Positions 36,979 to 45,822 of a DNA stretch of 64,000 bases are shown in pieces. The translations under genes were made by a program, and so were the position numbers. Numbering within the stretch: position 1 is the first letter of the stretch; the number at the start of each line of letters is the position of its first letter. Where the stretch lies: positions 806,001-870,000 of the forward strand of contig NZ_JAMXEX010000001.1 of assembly GCF_025370775.1 (NCBI RefSeq), written 5' to 3'. The notes under the pieces are model-generated. The model was given only the letters and a program-made list of their open reading frames with translations. It had not been told where the DNA came from and searched no databases. This stretch comes from Ancylothrix sp. D3o (GTDB lineage Bacteria > Cyanobacteriota > Cyanobacteriia > Cyanobacteriales > Oscillatoriaceae).

Positions 36979-39720
36979 CTAGCTCAGCGGGTATCTCCAG
37001 GCCAAAAACTGCTCAGCACCGGCGCGACTATCGCCAATTTCTCCATCCAACCTTGCGGCTAATAATTCATCTAAAATTTGCTTAAATTGTCTGCCTTGTT
37101 TATACCCCAATTGTTTTAAATCATTTCCGTTTAAAGGTGGTTTAATCTGACGACCTACGGTTAAATATTGCCAAATAACCCGGCGCACTCTCCGCTTACT
37201 TCCTGCTGCAATTAAAATTAAACTCGACAAATCATACCGCCGCAACACCCCCACTATTTCACTCACCCGCTGACATTGTGGTAAATTTTCCTTGACTTCT
37301 TGCTGATTTTTTGCTAATTCATTTAACCTGGCAATACTCGGCACCGGCAATTGTAATGTTTCCGCTACCATTAAGCGATATTGCGGTTCCAAATACGCAA
37401 TTAAAACCTCTAACATTATCTGCCAATGCTCTAAACTTTTCTCTGCATCAAATTTCTGTAAACATCGGTCAACTAGCCTTACTTGTTTCCATAATTTATC
37501 ATCTAATTCTAGGGTTGAATGAATACATTTTAAGGCTTGTAATTCTCCCAACAATTGCAAAGCCGATTTCCAGTAAGGCGCTTGTAAAATATATTTCAAT
37601 TCGGCTTTTAAGCGGGTTTCTAAAGCCGGGGCGCGGGTGCCGGTGGGGTGCCGGTGATAAACTCCGCTTTCAATTGCATGACGAATATAACCTTTTGTTT
37701 GCGGTTCAATTTCAAAACCCAACCTGACAGCAAACCTGACAGCACGATAAATTCTTGTTGGATCTTCAATAAAACTATTGGCGTGTAAAACTCGAATTTC
37801 TCGCGCTTGTAAATCTAATAATCCGCCAAAAAAATCTAACAATTCCCCTGCACGATTTCCAGTTATTTTAACCGCTAAAGCATTAATGGTAAAATCTCTT
37901 CGATATAAATCTTGCCGAATTGAAGAGGCTTCAACTTCAGGATTAGCTGCTGGATAAGGATAAAATTCTGTTCTGGCTGTCGCTATATCTACCCATAATG
38001 ACCCTAATTCAGCATCTTTATGCCACAATAAGGCTGCTGTTTGAAATTTGCCATGAATATCTAATCGTGCTTGCGGAAAACGCTCTTGCAAAGCTTTAGC
38101 TAATTGTACACCGGCCCCTGATTGTCTTTTATCCAAATTTCCGCTCAAAGCTTCCGGTTTATAATACCCATCTACCACTAAATCTATATCAGAAAGCTCT
38201 AAAATATCATCAGGTTTGGCTAATAATAAATCCCGCACAGCACCGCCAACCAAATAAAGCTGCCAGCCTCGATTTTCTGCTAGTTCCCCAGCCGTTTTTA
38301 GAAAGTGCCATAATTGCGGTGTCATTCGATTACGGAGTTGCTCTTGCAATGATTGGGGAACGGCACAATAATCAGGTGTTTTAACTCTATCTCGATTACC
38401 GATAGTTTCGTTTTGATGTAATTCTCGCAAAACATCCGTGCGGGTAACAATTCCTACTAATTGACTGTTTTCTAAGACCGGCAATCGTCCAATATCATAC
38501 GTTACCATCAGCGCTTCTATTTCCGGTAAAGCTGTATCTGGGGTGATTGTTTTAAGGTTAGTTGTCATATAGCCTTTCACCGGCGCATGAGTGAAGCCAT
38601 GATGCAAAGCAATATCTAAATCTCGGCGCGAAATTACCCCCACAAGACTGCCGGTTGCATCAACTACAGATAACCCTGAATGTCCATAACGTAATAAAAT
38701 TCTTTGGGCTTCAAAAATTGTCGTTTCTGGGAGAATTGTTCGCACCGGCGATGACATTAATTCTCTGGCTGTTGGCGGATGCGGAATTTGCTTTTTAAAT
38801 TTTTCTACTAATTCTTTTAAAGTGGATTTGGCATCTACATCTCGCATCACAAGGGAGGCTGCTCTGGCATGACCACCACCACCATAAGGCTTAAATAAAT
38901 CGTTTAAATTAGTATTGGGAATTTGCGACCGGCCTATGACACTTAACCGATGTTCTCCAGACCCACGCAAAGCATATTTGTGAGCAAAAAGCAAGGCATC
39001 AATTTCGGTAATTTCTGTTAATTGAGACGCTAAACTTGATAACCCCGGAATGTAAGAATCTGTTTCTAAAAGCACAGAAGAAACGTCATATCCCCGGACA
39101 TTTTCAGTCTGGATTTTTTCGAGAGCAGAAGAAAGTAAATCTTGAAGTTGAGGAGATAAACCAGGTTCGACATATTCAGCAATCACCGGCAAACTGGCTC
39201 CTTTTTCCATTAACCAAGCCAAAGCTTTAGCATCGCGACTTGTAGAATGGTCAAAAGTAAGAGAGCCGGTGTCAACATGAATGCCGAGAGCCATAACCGT
39301 TGCTTCGGCGGGGGTAAGAGTAGACGTATCAGACTGTTGGAGCAATTCTACAATTAAAGTCGTGGTGGAACCGACCGGCTCAATTTGTGTAAAAGTTGCA
39401 GGGATATCAGTTTCGAGATGCAAATGGTGATCATAAACAGAAATTTCCGTGACTTCGGGCAAATCTAACCACTCAGCGGCTTTGCCTAAACGTTCGCGTT
39501 GTTGCGAGTCTACAACAAAAATAGAGCGAATTTTTTGAGGATTAACAGACCGGCGTTCAATTAAAGGATATTCATCACGGTGGAGGGCCAAAAAATCGCG
39601 GACTGTCGGATGAGCACCGCCGGTGAGGACAACTCTAGCACCCGGACGCAAGCGCGTCAGACCAACAGCAGCGCCGAGAGTATCAAAATCTGCGGTTGTG
39701 TGACACAAAATTAAATCCAT
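36979..39720 (-). CDS. DHH-CBS-CBS-tRNA nucleotidyltransferase fusion protein
   Basis: A 913-residue multidomain protein. Residues ~1-310 are a DHH/DHHA1 phosphoesterase ([52 protein letters not shown]). Two CBS domains at about 315-430 follow ([54 protein letters not shown]). The C-terminal half is a poly(A) polymerase/CCA-adding class II nucleotidyltransferase ([59 protein letters not shown]). It probably repairs or adds tRNA 3' A (or CCA) with nanoRNase-like DHH activity and adenylate-sensing CBS regulation. Similar fusions occur in cyanobacteria and Aquifex-like bacteria. Confidence 0.9.
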
Positions 39721-40070: not shown

Positions 40071-40259
40071 ATGTCAATCATATTTCAAATCGCACTTACC
40101 GCACTTGTCTTGCTTTCTCTAGTAATGGTCATCGGCGTTCCGGTAGCCTATGCTTCTCCCCAAAACTGGGATCAGTCTAAACGGCTGATTTTCTTGGGGT
40201 CGGGCCTTTGGTTCGCTCTTGTCATTGCCGTTGGTGTATTGAACTATTTTGTAGTCTGA
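40071..40259 (+). CDS. psbZ: Photosystem II protein PsbZ (Ycf9)
   Basis: The 62-residue product is the standard PsbZ length. Two transmembrane helices flank a short loop: [20 protein letters not shown] at the N-terminus and [20 protein letters not shown] at the C-terminus, separated by the conserved [12 protein letters not shown]. PsbZ sits at the periphery of the PSII core in the thylakoid membrane and stabilises its interaction with PsbK/Ycf12 and antenna. ATG 40071 has AAGGA at good spacing; the frame reaches back to 40047 but those codons are not part of the family. psbZ directly before ribH is a common cyanobacterial arrangement. Confidence 0.96.
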
Positions 40260-40355: not shown

Positions 40356-40937
40356 ATGGCTGTTTTTGAGGGAAATTTTACGCAAACTGCCTCGCTGCGG
40401 TTTGCGATTGTTATTGGCCGGTTTAATGATTTGATTACCGGCAAGCTGCTGGAAGGTTGTCAAGATTGCTTGAAGCGTCACGGGGTGGATGTTGACCCCC
40501 AAGGGACTCAAGTTGATTATGCTTGGGTGCCGGGGTGTTTTGAGGTGCCGGCGGTGGCTCGTCAATTGGCGATTACCGGCCGGTATGATGCGATTATTTG
40601 TTTGGGAGCGGTGATTAAAGGCCAAACTCCTCATTTTGATTATGTGGCAGCAGAGGTGTCTAAGGGCATCGCGGCGGCGGGTTTTCAAACGGGGGTGCCG
40701 GTGATTTTTGGTGTGGTGACAACGGATACGATGCAGCAAGCTTTGGAGCGAGCGGGGATTAAGAGTAATTTGGGTTGGAATTATGCCATGAGTGCTCTGG
40801 AAATGGCTAGTTTGATGCAGCAAATAAAATCTATTGCTGGGTCAGATGTTTATGGTAATAATCCTCCTCCGAATACAGTTTTACCGGCTCCGCTGAAAAA
40901 TGCGATGGCTGTGATGGAACCGTCCCAAGACTCGTAA
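40356..40937 (+). CDS. ribH: 6,7-dimethyl-8-ribityllumazine synthase
   Basis: The penultimate enzyme of riboflavin synthesis condenses 5-amino-6-ribitylaminouracil with 3,4-dihydroxy-2-butanone 4-phosphate. From ATG 40356 it has 193 residues. Hallmarks are [55 protein letters not shown] (catalytic His in the TPHFD/E region) and [22 protein letters not shown]. The C-terminal ~30 residues beyond SALEMASLM are an Asn/Pro-rich extension. The frame extends ten codons upstream through the repeat region, but MAVFEGNF is the family start. Confidence 0.95.
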
Positions 40938-41090: not shown

Positions 41091-41162
41091 GCGGGTGTAG
41101 CTCAGTGGTAGAGCGTCACCTTGCCAAGGTGAATGTCGCGCGTTCGAATCGCGTCACCCGCT
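41091..41162 (+). tRNA. trnG-GCC: tRNA-Gly (GCC)
   Basis: The acceptor GCGGGTG pairs with CACCCGC, the D-arm is GCTCAGTGGTAGAGC, the anticodon stem TCACC/GGTGA encloses TTGCCAA with anticodon GCC, and the T-arm is CGCGC GTTCGAATC GCGTC. Discriminator is T; no CCA is encoded. Confidence 0.96.
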
Positions 41163-41423: not shown

Positions 41424-41846
41424 TTGGCAAGAAAACTGCTTGTGCATTCTCATAAAGGTCATAAGATTGATTTAAGTTCGGACTACCCTTGCCCTTGTCG
41501 GCGCCGGGGCCGGTTGATGCCGATTACGTTGACGGAAGCTTTTGGCTGTAATCGCTGTCAGCACATTTTTGTTGTGGATGATAGCGGTTATGTGATTGAG
41601 CAGTTGTCGGCGACGTATCCTTATAAACAGGCTTGGCGCTGGACTGGTCAGCAATGGAATAAGGCTTCGGCTGGTTTGAGGGATAGTTATTTTCCTCTGG
41701 CGGTGGGGATTATTCTGGTGTTGCTGATTATTTGGCTGCCTCTGGCGGTGAAGTCTGGCGGTTCTAATATTATTCCTTGGGCAATTGTGGCGCTGCTGTT
41801 GGCGGTGCTGCCGGCGCTCATGGTTTGGCTGGCATACAGGCGTTAG
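41424..41846 (+). CDS. Zinc-ribbon membrane protein
   Basis: A ~140-residue protein of a family seen in cyanobacteria. The N-terminal half has two CxC/CxxC pairs (YPCPCRRRGRLMPI and FGCNRCQHIFVV), forming a probable zinc ribbon, followed by SATYPYKQAWRWTGQQW. Two transmembrane helices cover about 93-113 (FPLAVGIILVLLIIWLPLA) and 119-137 (IIPWAIVALLLAVLPALMVW). Function is unknown. Start is uncertain: TTG 41424 gives the longest form, while GTG 41442 (VHSHKGHKIDL) is equally plausible. The ProA-like gene starts 4 bases after its stop, so the two are translationally linked. Confidence 0.7.
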   Translation: MARKLLVHSHKGHKIDLSSDYPCPCRRRGRLMPITLTEAFGCNRCQHIFVVDDSGYVIEQLSATYPYKQAWRWTGQQWNKASAGLRDSYFPLAVGIILVLLIIWLPLAVKSGGSNIIPWAIVALLLAVLPALMVWLAYRR

Positions 41847-41850
41847 CTCA

Positions 41851-43116
41851 ATGACCACTGATAATTTAAATTCTCCTCTGCTTCCTATGGATGCGGCTCT
41901 TCAAGCGCATCTGGCGTCTTTGGAATTGGCTCAGAAAAAAGGCCCGGATCGAGATCGGGGTTTGAGGGCGATGGCTGAGGCTCTCAAACAAAATGCGAAT
42001 TATATTTTGGAGGCTAATACTCTGGATCTGGAGGCGTCGCGGGAAATGGCGGTGCCGGATTTGGTTTTGGAGTGGTTGAAGTTGACGCCGGAGAGAATTC
42101 AGGCGGCGGTGCAAATTTTAAATCGGCTTTCGGAGTTGGGTGATCCGATTCGGCGGGCGATGAATGCGAGTTATCATTTGGAGCATTCGCAAATTTATTC
42201 GCAGTTGATGCCGTTGGGGGTTATTGCTTTGGTTTATGAGGGGTTTCCTCAGTTGGGGGCTATTGCGGCGGGTTTGTGTATTAAGTCGGGTAATTGTTTG
42301 ATTTTGCGGGGTGGGAGTGAGTCTTTTCACTCTAATGCGGCGATTGTTGAGTGTTTGCAGGCCGGTGTGGCGAAGGCGGGTTTGCCGGTGGGGTGTGTGC
42401 AGTTGTTGCCGGCGGATCAGGGGGGGTCGATTCGTGATTTGGTGACTTTGGAGCAGTTTGTTAATTTGGTGATTCCTTATGGCCGGCCTAGTTTGGTTCA
42501 GCAGGTGATGCGTCAGGCGACGGCGCCGGTTTTGAAGTCGGCGATGGGGAATTGTTATTTATATTGGTCGCCTACGGGGAGTTTAGATTTGGCGAGGTTT
42601 GTGATTTTGGATAGTCATCAAAGTGAGCCTGATCCGGTGAATGCTATTGAGAAGGTTTTGATTCACAGAACGCAGAAGCCTTCGTCTTTGGCGATGCTTT
42701 GGAATAGTTTAAAGGAGAAGGGGTTTATGGTGAAGGGGGATGCGGAGTTGGTGAGGGATTTTCCTGAGTTAATTTTGGCGGGGGATGGGGAGTGGAGTCA
42801 GGCTTATTTGACTAAGACGGTGGCTTTTAAGGTGGTGGATAGTTTGGAGGAGGGGATTGGTTGGATTAATGATTATAGTAGTGGTCATGCTGATTGTATT
42901 GTGACGGAATCTTATCAGGAAAGCCGGCAGTTTGCTTTGGGAATTAATAGTGCTTCGACTTATGTTAATGCGTCGCCTCGGTTTTACCGGCAACCTAAGC
43001 AGGCGGATACGATTTTTTTGGGGATGTCTAATCAAAAGGGGCACCGTCGAGGGGTGATTGGTTTGGAAAGTTTGACGACGGTTAAGCATATTGTGCAGGG
43101 TAATGGGGTGTTTTAG
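41851..43116 (+). CDS. ProA-like protein lacking the catalytic cysteine
   Basis: A 421-residue protein aligned over its length with glutamate-5-semialdehyde dehydrogenase (ProA; reduces glutamyl-5-phosphate for proline synthesis). Recognisable blocks are RDRGLRAMAEALKQNANYIL, LILRGGSESFHSNAAIVECL, ILAGDGEWSQAYLTKTVAFKVVD, SGHADCIVTESY and GVIGLESLTTVKHIV. The active-site block normally reading 'TQRPS.CNA.E.LLVH' is here HQSEPDPVNAIEKVLIH, with Val in place of the nucleophilic Cys, and the substrate motif YEARPNV reads YEGFPQL. It is therefore probably not a working ProA. A genuine proA is expected elsewhere. ATG 41851 follows the zinc-ribbon gene by 4 bases. Confidence 0.8.
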   Translation: MTTDNLNSPLLPMDAALQAHLASLELAQKKGPDRDRGLRAMAEALKQNANYILEANTLDLEASREMAVPDLVLEWLKLTPERIQAAVQILNRLSELGDPIRRAMNASYHLEHSQIYSQLMPLGVIALVYEGFPQLGAIAAGLCIKSGNCLILRGGSESFHSNAAIVECLQAGVAKAGLPVGCVQLLPADQGGSIRDLVTLEQFVNLVIPYGRPSLVQQVMRQATAPVLKSAMGNCYLYWSPTGSLDLARFVILDSHQSEPDPVNAIEKVLIHRTQKPSSLAMLWNSLKEKGFMVKGDAELVRDFPELILAGDGEWSQAYLTKTVAFKVVDSLEEGIGWINDYSSGHADCIVTESYQESRQFALGINSASTYVNASPRFYRQPKQADTIFLGMSNQKGHRRGVIGLESLTTVKHIVQGNGVF

Positions 43117-43131: not shown

Positions 43132-45822
43132 TTAATGGTTTAATAGCCACCGGCGAAATAGTTCGACAATAATTTGCCAGTTTTGATCTGTTTGTTTGAC
43201 GACATCATGGCGTTTTAGGGTTTCGAGGGCGTTGTTTATTGTGGTTTCATTGAGGCAGGTGGTTTTTATTAATGCTTCTATGGTTAATCCCTGTGGGTGG
43301 GGTGCGAGGGTTTTTAAAATTGTTTGTTGGTGGGGGTTTCCTTGGGCTGCTTGTCCCCATACGCCGGTGAAGTAATAGCGTCCTCGGTTGAAGAATTCCT
43401 CATCATTAATGACGGTTTCTAGGTCTTTTGGGGTGAAGATGGGATCGCGCTGTTGGCCGGTTTCAAATACTTGGTGGTTGTAAAGGCGAACCAGTTGAAA
43501 TCCTATTAGTTGAACTAGATAGGGTTGGCCGCTGGTTAAGTTATAAATTTCTTCGAGGGTTTCGCGTTTATAATCGAGGGGGAAATCTTCGTCGGGGTTG
43601 GCGAGTAGATAACCAGTTGTGGCAGGTTCCATGAAACCTACTTTGATGGGGATGACGCTGGCAAAAAAGGGTTGAAAGTAATTAGCGGTCATTTCTTCTA
43701 GGGTGTGCAAACCTGCAAAGGCAAAGCCAATTTTCGGACTCTGTTGCACCATTCCCCGCAGCACTTCCATAAAATCGGGGGGAATTTTTCCTGCTTCTAT
43801 CAGGTCTTCTATTTTCTCGAATTCGTCTAAGGCAATTATTAGTCCGCCTCTGAGGTTGGATTCAATTTGTTTTAAGTACCTTTCAAAGCTGCGGTAGGGC
43901 ATTTTTAGTAATGCTTCATCATCTGGGGGGGATTGTTTTAGGGTGTCGGAAATGGCATCGGTGATGGTTATTAGCACTTCGCCAACTCCTTGAGAAATAT
44001 TTCCTAATGTCAGGAGGTTAATGTAGGCAAGGGTGATGTCAGACGGCAGAATTTTGGCTACATTTCTGAGAATGGAAGTTTTACCCATGCGCCTATGACC
44101 GAATAAAACAACTGATTGTAGTTGATTGCTCGCTCCCCACAATTCCTGTAGTTGTGTGAGGATGTCTTCCCGTCCCACAAAAAGGGAACCCTCAACAGGA
44201 TCACCCGCAATATAGGGATTACGGACTTTTTGTTTAATGGAAATTTCCCCAACTTCATCGGCCACTGGCAGCAAAATTAGTGCCCAACTTTTTGCAATGT
44301 TTATGATTATATCTCGCTCGGTTCGGGGTAAGGTATGGCTGTGATTGAGGATGTTTATCAGTTCTCCTAATGCGCGATTGAGGGCGAAAGAACGAAGAGA
44401 GCGAGATAGACTTTTTTTAATTACTTGGATATCCTCTACTACTTGTTGCAGACTGGCAAGGACTTTCCAAGTTGCAGAATGAAATAGGGGTTCTGGGGGA
44501 AAAGTGGGGATTTGAATATTAGCAATAGCGTTTAATTCTTTGGCCTTATTACAAACGGTGAGAATTTCAGCTAAGGTGAACATTTCCTCGCCATAGGGGA
44601 GAGAACGCACGACGGCAAAGGCTGTTGCTGCTTTCACTGGTTCTTTTTCATATAAATAATAAAAACCAGCCGCCGCCGCCCTGGCTGGGGTGTCTAACCG
44701 CATATCTGTTTGCAAATATCTTTTAATTTTTTGCTTGGCAAAAGCGGGAAGTAGGAAGAAGCTATCGAGCGCCCTTGACTTCAGGGTTTCACTGAGAGAA
44801 GCTGAGGCAAAACGCAGCAAATTAGGATCGCAATTATAGGCAGTTTCAGCGAGTTGGTTAACACGAAAGATAAGATGTTCGCCTGGTATTTCTGCAAGGA
44901 CAAAGTTAAGTGCCTGGAGCACCGGGATAAATTGAAGGGTGTAAGTTAGCAGTTGCTCAAGATTATCTAGTCCTTTTTGCCAATCTTTTCGCAGCCAATT
45001 TTTTAGATGAAAAGATAAATTGACAAGGGGAAGGGGGGTGACACGGGAAAATTGCCAATATTCATGTTGGGGTTTGAATAGCAACAAACCTAAAAGCCAA
45101 CTTTCAGGACGAAGTATTTCCACGCCAAACGCCACGCCAAACCCCACGCCACTCGCCACGCCAAACGCCATCCCTAACACCACGCCACTCGCCATCCCTA
45201 ACGCCACGCCACTCGCCACGCGTAAAGCCACGCCACTCGCCACGCCTAACGCCACGCCACCTGCCACGCCACTTGCCACGCCACTCGCCACGCGTAAAGC
45301 CACGCCGCCCGCCACGACACTTGCCATCCCTAACGCCACGCTACTCGCCACGCCTAACGCCACGCCACCTGCCACGCCACCCGCCACGCCACTCTCCACG
45401 CCAAACGCCACGCCACTTGCCACGCCTACCGCCGCGCCTAACGCCACGCGAAACCAATCAACCGAAATGCCTGTTCCCGCTAAAATTGCTCCGATAATAA
45501 CAGGTACAATAACTGTTAATAATAATCCTTGGACAAATAACTCACGCTCAAGAGAATTTTGCCTCAGCGATTGCCAAAAGTTTCCCCAAGTCCTGTTTTC
45601 TTCAGCAACCAAGTTATTGCCAAAGGTTTTTATATACCACCGCAAAGCTTGGGGGAAGAAAAACACCCAGTACAATAACCGCAGATAATCTAGGGGATTC
45701 CACAAGGAAAGGGGGCGGTTTAATTTAGGAGCTAAGTCTAAACGGGGAACAGGGGTTTCTAGTTTGCCCATCATAGATTCTAATGGTGTGCGCGGGAATA
45801 TTTTTGATAGCATTGATAGCAA
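43132..45822 (-). CDS. Membrane-anchored AAA-like ATPase with GVAx repeat domain
   Basis: An 896-residue protein. The N-terminal ~110 residues end in a membrane helix (LFVQGLLLTVIVPVIIGAILAG). Residues ~124-234 are a hydrophobic four-residue repeat (GVAS, GVAG, GVAL, GMAS) encoded by GC-rich DNA repeats. Residues ~250-540 are helical. The ATPase domain starts near 560 (GSLFVGREDILTQL) with Walker A GHRRMGKTSIL near 577, Walker B LIIALDEFEKIED near 664, and a C-terminal winged-helix-like part (LKTLAPHPQGLTIEALIKTT, ALETLKRHDVV). This is the layout of STAND/AAA-type conflict or signalling NTPases. The long start overlaps the upstream ATPase gene by 43 bases; ATGs at 45774 and 45771 are alternatives just after its stop. 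Confidence 0.72.
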   Translation of the reverse strand: MLSMLSKIFPRTPLESMMGKLETPVPRLDLAPKLNRPLSLWNPLDYLRLLYWVFFFPQALRWYIKTFGNNLVAEENRTWGNFWQSLRQNSLERELFVQGLLLTVIVPVIIGAILAGTGISVDWFRVALGAAVGVASGVAFGVESGVAGGVAGGVALGVASSVALGMASVVAGGVALRVASGVASGVAGGVALGVASGVALRVASGVALGMASGVVLGMAFGVASGVGFGVAFGVEILRPESWLLGLLLFKPQHEYWQFSRVTPLPLVNLSFHLKNWLRKDWQKGLDNLEQLLTYTLQFIPVLQALNFVLAEIPGEHLIFRVNQLAETAYNCDPNLLRFASASLSETLKSRALDSFFLLPAFAKQKIKRYLQTDMRLDTPARAAAAGFYYLYEKEPVKAATAFAVVRSLPYGEEMFTLAEILTVCNKAKELNAIANIQIPTFPPEPLFHSATWKVLASLQQVVEDIQVIKKSLSRSLRSFALNRALGELINILNHSHTLPRTERDIIINIAKSWALILLPVADEVGEISIKQKVRNPYIAGDPVEGSLFVGREDILTQLQELWGASNQLQSVVLFGHRRMGKTSILRNVAKILPSDITLAYINLLTLGNISQGVGEVLITITDAISDTLKQSPPDDEALLKMPYRSFERYLKQIESNLRGGLIIALDEFEKIEDLIEAGKIPPDFMEVLRGMVQQSPKIGFAFAGLHTLEEMTANYFQPFFASVIPIKVGFMEPATTGYLLANPDEDFPLDYKRETLEEIYNLTSGQPYLVQLIGFQLVRLYNHQVFETGQQRDPIFTPKDLETVINDEEFFNRGRYYFTGVWGQAAQGNPHQQTILKTLAPHPQGLTIEALIKTTCLNETTINNALETLKRHDVVKQTDQNWQIIVELFRRWLLNH
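45120..45450 (-). repeat. GC-rich CGCCACGCCA(C/A) tandem repeats in the ATPase gene
   Basis: More than 20 degenerate 12-base units (plus-strand CGCCACGCCACT, CGCCATCCCTAA, CGCGTAAAGCCA variants) encode the GVAx repeats. Several units form higher-order blocks, for example CACTCGCCACGCGTAAAGCC occurring at about 45211 and 45283, indicating duplication of larger segments. Confidence 0.85.

Follow-up and report, generated by a model that had tools for sequence, protein, structure and literature searches.

The locus and its neighbouring genes

The 64,000-nucleotide stretch of Ancylothrix sp. D3o analysed here (the window) carries four features of interest, in the following order and all on the forward strand: ribH, encoding 6,7-dimethyl-8-ribityllumazine synthase (40356..40937); a tRNA-Gly(GCC) gene (41091..41162); a gene for a zinc-ribbon protein (41424..41846); and a gene for a paralog of ProA (41851..43116). 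The paralog reads without interruption from ATG to stop over 421 amino acids and has V263 where a catalytic cysteine is expected. The zinc-ribbon protein combines a CPC-x16-CxxC pattern with two C-terminal hydrophobic segments. Its start is ambiguous (TTG at 41424 or GTG at 41442), and its stop ends at 41846, leaving a gap of four bases before the paralog ATG at 41851. The first-pass annotation had described a long, intact frame coupled to the zinc-ribbon gene by four bases, and both descriptions hold. The tRNA gene is a frequent upstream neighbour of the zinc-ribbon gene and, like ribH, is regarded as background synteny. No linkage of the paralog to proB or proA was found in the window or in the other loci inspected.

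Three other frames of the region were noted in passing. A 62-residue hydrophobic frame that resembles psbZ by eye lies 5' of ribH (40071-40259, forward strand). Beyond the paralog, the reverse strand encodes an 896-residue AAA-ATPase-like protein (43132-45822) with a long series of hydrophobic repeats of the GVA/GVAS type in its N-terminal part. A 913-residue protein (36979-39720, reverse strand), whose domains comprise DHH, CBS (two copies), and the poly(A) polymerase head, resembles the model for A-adding tRNA nucleotidyltransferases, scoring 497.5 bits against a curated cut-off of 1440.

The true ProA of the same genome, with which a comparison had been proposed, was found on another contig (G000:C17:13963-15267, minus strand). 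It is of the cysteine type, with the active-site sequence PAACNAIET, and shares about 34% identity with the paralog over the matched part. ProB of this genome is encoded on contig C12.

Loss of the catalytic cysteine and probable remodelling of the pocket

The central claim of the first-pass annotation, that valine replaces the catalytic cysteine of ProA, is borne out by alignment. V263 pairs with residue 543 of Arabidopsis P5CS2 (8j0e_F), as counted from the pairwise alignment, and C543 is named as the catalytic residue of that enzyme (PMC11208152); in fly P5CS, C598 has been proposed as the attacker of the substrate (PMC8963878). The active-site block DPVNAIEKVLIH and the motif YEGFPQL had also been read correctly in the window protein, and across the family these stretches have the consensus sequences DPVNAIEKVLIH and YEAFPEL. 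Cysteine is present at this site in none of the 46 paralogs in our phylogenetic tree (43 Val, 2 Gly, 1 Ala, with the alignment of the site uncertain for the copies of family f43) versus all 47 true ProAs, many of which come from genomes that also carry the paralog. The same loss is seen in more than 110 orthologues, which rules out a chance substitution in one genome; where these were aligned, valine lies within DPVNAIEK or a near form, with isoleucine in one. Divergent copies in families f44, f40, and f43 likewise lack the cysteine, and those of f40 and f43 have also lost some of the new motif, as in L180, which reads ANPDRALAIEK.

A substitute active-site cysteine, brought into place by a shifted alignment, was looked for and not found. 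C235 is the only cysteine invariant in the family, and it is equally invariant in the 47 true ProAs, where it accompanies the catalytic cysteine; a shifted alignment is therefore rejected. C143, C182, and C349 of the paralog vary across the family.

The overall fold nevertheless appears to be that of ProA. The paralog can be aligned from end to end with GPR/ProA proteins of solved structure (E-values of 8e-68 and weaker), and an AlphaFold2 model built from a 75-sequence alignment reached a pLDDT of 92.2 and a pTM of 0.90, though this alignment contained true ProAs and may have drawn the model towards the GPR fold. It supersedes an earlier, poor model derived from 31 close orthologues (pLDDT 68.3). 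The closest PDB match to the model is GPR 1o20 (Z 45.4, rmsd 2.6, 409 residues aligned), followed by E. coli GPR 8zon (Z 43.7) and then human and fly P5CS. A GPR fold is thus predicted to span the entire chain.

Within this fold, several positions that are invariant in ProA have been replaced. Among the 86 columns conserved in at least 93% of ProAs, the paralog keeps 37 and has lost 26. The lost columns include E. coli R121, R180, R199, H225, K245, C252, D373, and E382, and all of these other than C252 are each retained in fewer than 10% of the 40 core paralogs. By homology to GPR, the replaced positions would line the pocket. The commonest paralog residue at the lost columns has a mean frequency of 0.80, compared with 0.71 over all columns, a value reached by 172 of 10,000 random draws from all columns; for columns that are not ProA-invariant the mean is 0.67, and 8 of 10,000 draws reach 0.80. 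W75, Y210, Y236, V263, K268, S343, R380, and L390 are near invariant in the paralogs. The unusual conservation of the replacing residues points to remodelling rather than drift or decay.

Some elements of ProA persist. N264, E130, H346, and N373 of ProA are retained in all 40 core paralogs. The RGGSEA loop, which belongs to the nucleotide site of proteins with the ALDH fold, is mostly retained (R/K153 in 38 of 40, G154 in 39, E157 in 33). Fly P5CS R525 contacts adenine, and its counterpart as read from the alignment, E. coli R180, is mostly glycine in the paralogs. The loss of this residue and of E382 suggests that binding of NADP(H) may be weakened or gone.

Since the nucleophile for the thioacyl intermediate is absent and conserved charged residues are replaced, it is highly likely that the paralog is unable to perform ProA chemistry. 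Curated family models give a mixed signal: the paralog exceeds the cut-off of the NCBIfam equivalog NF001221 (glutamate-5-semialdehyde dehydrogenase; 329.6 versus 289) and falls below that of TIGR00407 (275.6 versus 317.45), while a Synechocystis-like copy falls below both. As the window protein passes NF001221, copies like it are probably annotated as ProA. This score, together with two genomes that seemingly hold no other ProA (G080 and G300, discussed below), could be taken to mean that the paralog is a backup ProA whose mechanism departs from the usual one, with C235 or water, for instance, serving as nucleophile. We consider this highly improbable given the failure of TIGR00407, the near absence of R121, R199, H225, K245, and E382 from the core copies, and the occurrence of C235 in every true ProA.

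The conserved replacements also bear on the possibility that the protein remains enzymatically active but with new chemistry, its pocket rebuilt around H256, K268, Y210, Y236, W75, and R380 for a non-covalent reaction on a related substrate. The near-invariant replaced positions would fit a constrained pocket, and the universal retention of N264, E130, H346, and N373, as well as strong purifying selection on the paralog, is compatible with catalysis. However, residues that would contact the cofactor by homology to ProA (R180, E382) are lost, and the divergent f40 and f43 copies miss parts of the new motif. On balance, new chemistry seems rather unlikely.

Distribution, ancestry and selection

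The paralog is widespread in cyanobacteria. Nearly all of 40 related genomes gave two matches, the paralog at 49-77% identity and the true ProA at about 30-35%, and a GTDB contig collection yielded 80 further cyanobacterial loci at 68% identity or more, these being the best 80 of 373 relatives. In a survey of 386 genomes across the phylum, a strong paralog match was present in 101 of the 104 genomes sampled from the order to which Ancylothrix belongs, as counted from the survey table, and was missing from G008, G336, and G390. Deep-branching families have the paralog as well. The 59 surveyed genomes of the small-genome family f41, and likewise those of other classes, gave only weaker matches of true-ProA strength. 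This survey rejects the notion that the paralog is an oddity of a single genome.

A careful maximum-likelihood tree of 93 proteins (46 paralogs, 47 true ProAs) separated all of the paralogs from the other sequences by a branch supported at 100/99. All 35 cyanobacterial ProAs formed another group (100/98), among the ProAs of sister classes and E. coli, which indicates that the paralog did not arise by recent duplication of cyanobacterial ProA. The lineage appears from these sequences to have been set apart before the radiation of the sampled cyanobacteria. Its stem is long and is compatible with either a split that may predate the phylum or a transfer; two rows of the tree (L175 and L180) are very long.

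Purifying selection was assessed through dN/dS of orthologues, as the first-pass annotation had suggested. Values ranged from 0.018 to 0.094 in fifteen close pairs, one of which has dS near saturation, and they indicate that the protein is under purifying selection. Together with the conservation described above, dN/dS values of 0.02-0.09 reject a decaying pseudogene. We conclude that the paralogs form a separate, cysteine-less family, present in most cyanobacteria, which very probably has a function other than that of ProA.

Nearly every genome with the paralog has a true ProA as well. In two single-contig genomes of family f33 (G080, G300), proB and the paralog are present (L258, L257) and no cysteine-type ProA was found; their congeners G249 and G267 have both the true ProA and the paralog. 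The gene that neighbours proA was not found in G080, no ProA-like stretch lies near its homolog in G300, and DNA searches for the proA locus in these two genomes gave results dominated by repeats.

The putative zinc-ribbon partner and a proposed function

The protein encoded upstream of the paralog belongs to a family with an invariant YPCPC...GC..C core, a W.W.G..W motif, and two hydrophobic segments; C23, C25, C42, C45, W71, W73, and W78 are invariant in the family alignment. From these features the protein is probably membrane-located and zinc-binding. It had no convincing match in Pfam, NCBIfam, or the PDB. A second, more distant relative is present in certain cyanobacteria, some of which lack the paralog, with E-values of about 1e-13 to 1e-17 (e.g. 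L254 in G362 and G112:C1:1462832-1463179).

Conservation of the linkage had been put forward as a further check, and it is pronounced: the zinc-ribbon gene immediately precedes the paralog in 150 of the 157 genomes or records that offer sufficient upstream DNA, families f40, f43, and f44 included. In several distant genomes the pair remains together with ribH and tRNA-Gly not nearby, which favours a functional link over mere shared gene order. The seven unlinked paralogs come from three Synechocystis-like genomes and one genome each of families f17, f23, f29, and f37. The zinc-ribbon family was missing from all 10 f41 genomes and all 11 genomes of other classes tested, as was the paralog; this search covered 36 hand-chosen genomes, mostly lacking one partner, and is not a measure of overall co-occurrence. 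Family f39 keeps a zinc-ribbon protein and misses the paralog. This, together with the seven unlinked cases, shows that the pair is separable.

Gene order connects the paralog to a mutant phenotype in Synechocystis. In the genome G099, which is closely related to Synechocystis PCC 6803, the paralog adjoins cph1-rcp1 (its neighbours reach 1148.8 bits against Cph1 and 303 bits against Rcp1), and the true ProA sits between carB and urtE. We take the corresponding Synechocystis locus tags to be slr0473 (cph1), sll0370 (carB), and sll0374 (urtE). On this basis, we infer that sll0461, annotated as proA, is the cysteine-less paralog and that sll0373 is the true ProA. Disruption of sll0461 is cited as increasing PHB in standard medium (PMC3766872, PMC3859321), and in the parts of the PHB-engineering literature consulted the gene is taken as true ProA, unlike our reading. 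Both proA transcripts rise in Synechocystis under nitrogen deprivation (PMC12386471). Occurrences of 'proA2' found in the literature denote an E. coli strain genotype and are irrelevant to the paralog.

The joint induction of the two transcripts could reflect a catalytically dead subunit that pairs with true ProA or ProB and directly regulates proline synthesis. Such a role would suit a fold common to an oligomer-forming enzyme (the title of entry 8zok refers to an EcGPR tetramer) and the presence of true ProA in almost all genomes with the paralog. Yet the paralog is unlinked to proB or proA at the loci inspected and tightly linked to a gene for a probable membrane protein, and G080 and G300 have the paralog and proB with no detectable true ProA, a loss that is unproven. 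A dead subunit of this kind is accordingly unlikely, slightly more so than new chemistry.

The conserved loss of cysteine, the dN/dS values, and the zinc-ribbon linkage support the first-pass reading, in which the protein is either a pseudoenzyme put to another use or an enzyme that has acquired new chemistry. Of these, we lean, with a little less than even confidence, towards a pseudoenzyme for ProA chemistry that has been repurposed as a ligand-binding regulator working with the membrane zinc-ribbon protein. Under this proposal, a GPR-fold protein devoid of ProA chemistry would have been kept since early cyanobacteria for another job. It may bind a small ligand, be it a metabolite of the glutamate family or a nucleotide, for instance NADP(H). 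It would contact the zinc-ribbon protein encoded directly upstream and would adjust how glutamate, nitrogen, and reducing power are used. The suggested action on the balance of nitrogen and carbon derives from the PHB phenotype attributed to sll0461. More tentatively, the zinc-ribbon membrane protein and the remodelled GPR-fold protein might constitute a two-gene module, present in most of the phylum and predating the sampled radiation. Such a module might sense or process a ligand, either a nucleotide or a member of the glutamate family, and in this way keep nitrogen, carbon, and reductant in balance; annotation as ProA would have masked it.

Should the paralog prove not to be a ProA, the PHB phenotype of sll0461 would reflect a function other than that of ProA, and metabolic models would contain a wrong reaction. 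It would also follow that a gene pair conserved in most of the phylum is directly testable in Synechocystis, Synechococcus, and Anabaena. Unlike the paralog of the window, those of the three Synechocystis-like genomes have no adjacent zinc-ribbon gene.

Among the closest known systems are ProA and the GPR domain of P5CS (ALDH18), with which the paralog shares its fold over the full length, an identity of about 25-34%, and 37 of the 86 ProA-invariant columns. It differs from them in the missing catalytic cysteine, the 26 lost invariant columns, its own group in the tree, and the linkage to a zinc-ribbon gene. A second parallel is human ALDH16A1, a pseudoenzyme of the ALDH superfamily (PMC10650815). 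That protein belongs to a different branch of the superfamily, outside the GPR family, and no zinc-ribbon partner is described for it in the same source. Like the paralog, however, it has an ALDH fold without the catalytic residues; it is supposed to act via protein partners, and the cell membrane is among its listed locations (PMC10650815). With an ALDH superfamily fold, lost catalytic residues, and a loss held in place by purifying selection, the cyanobacterial paralog would fit the same pseudoenzyme pattern.
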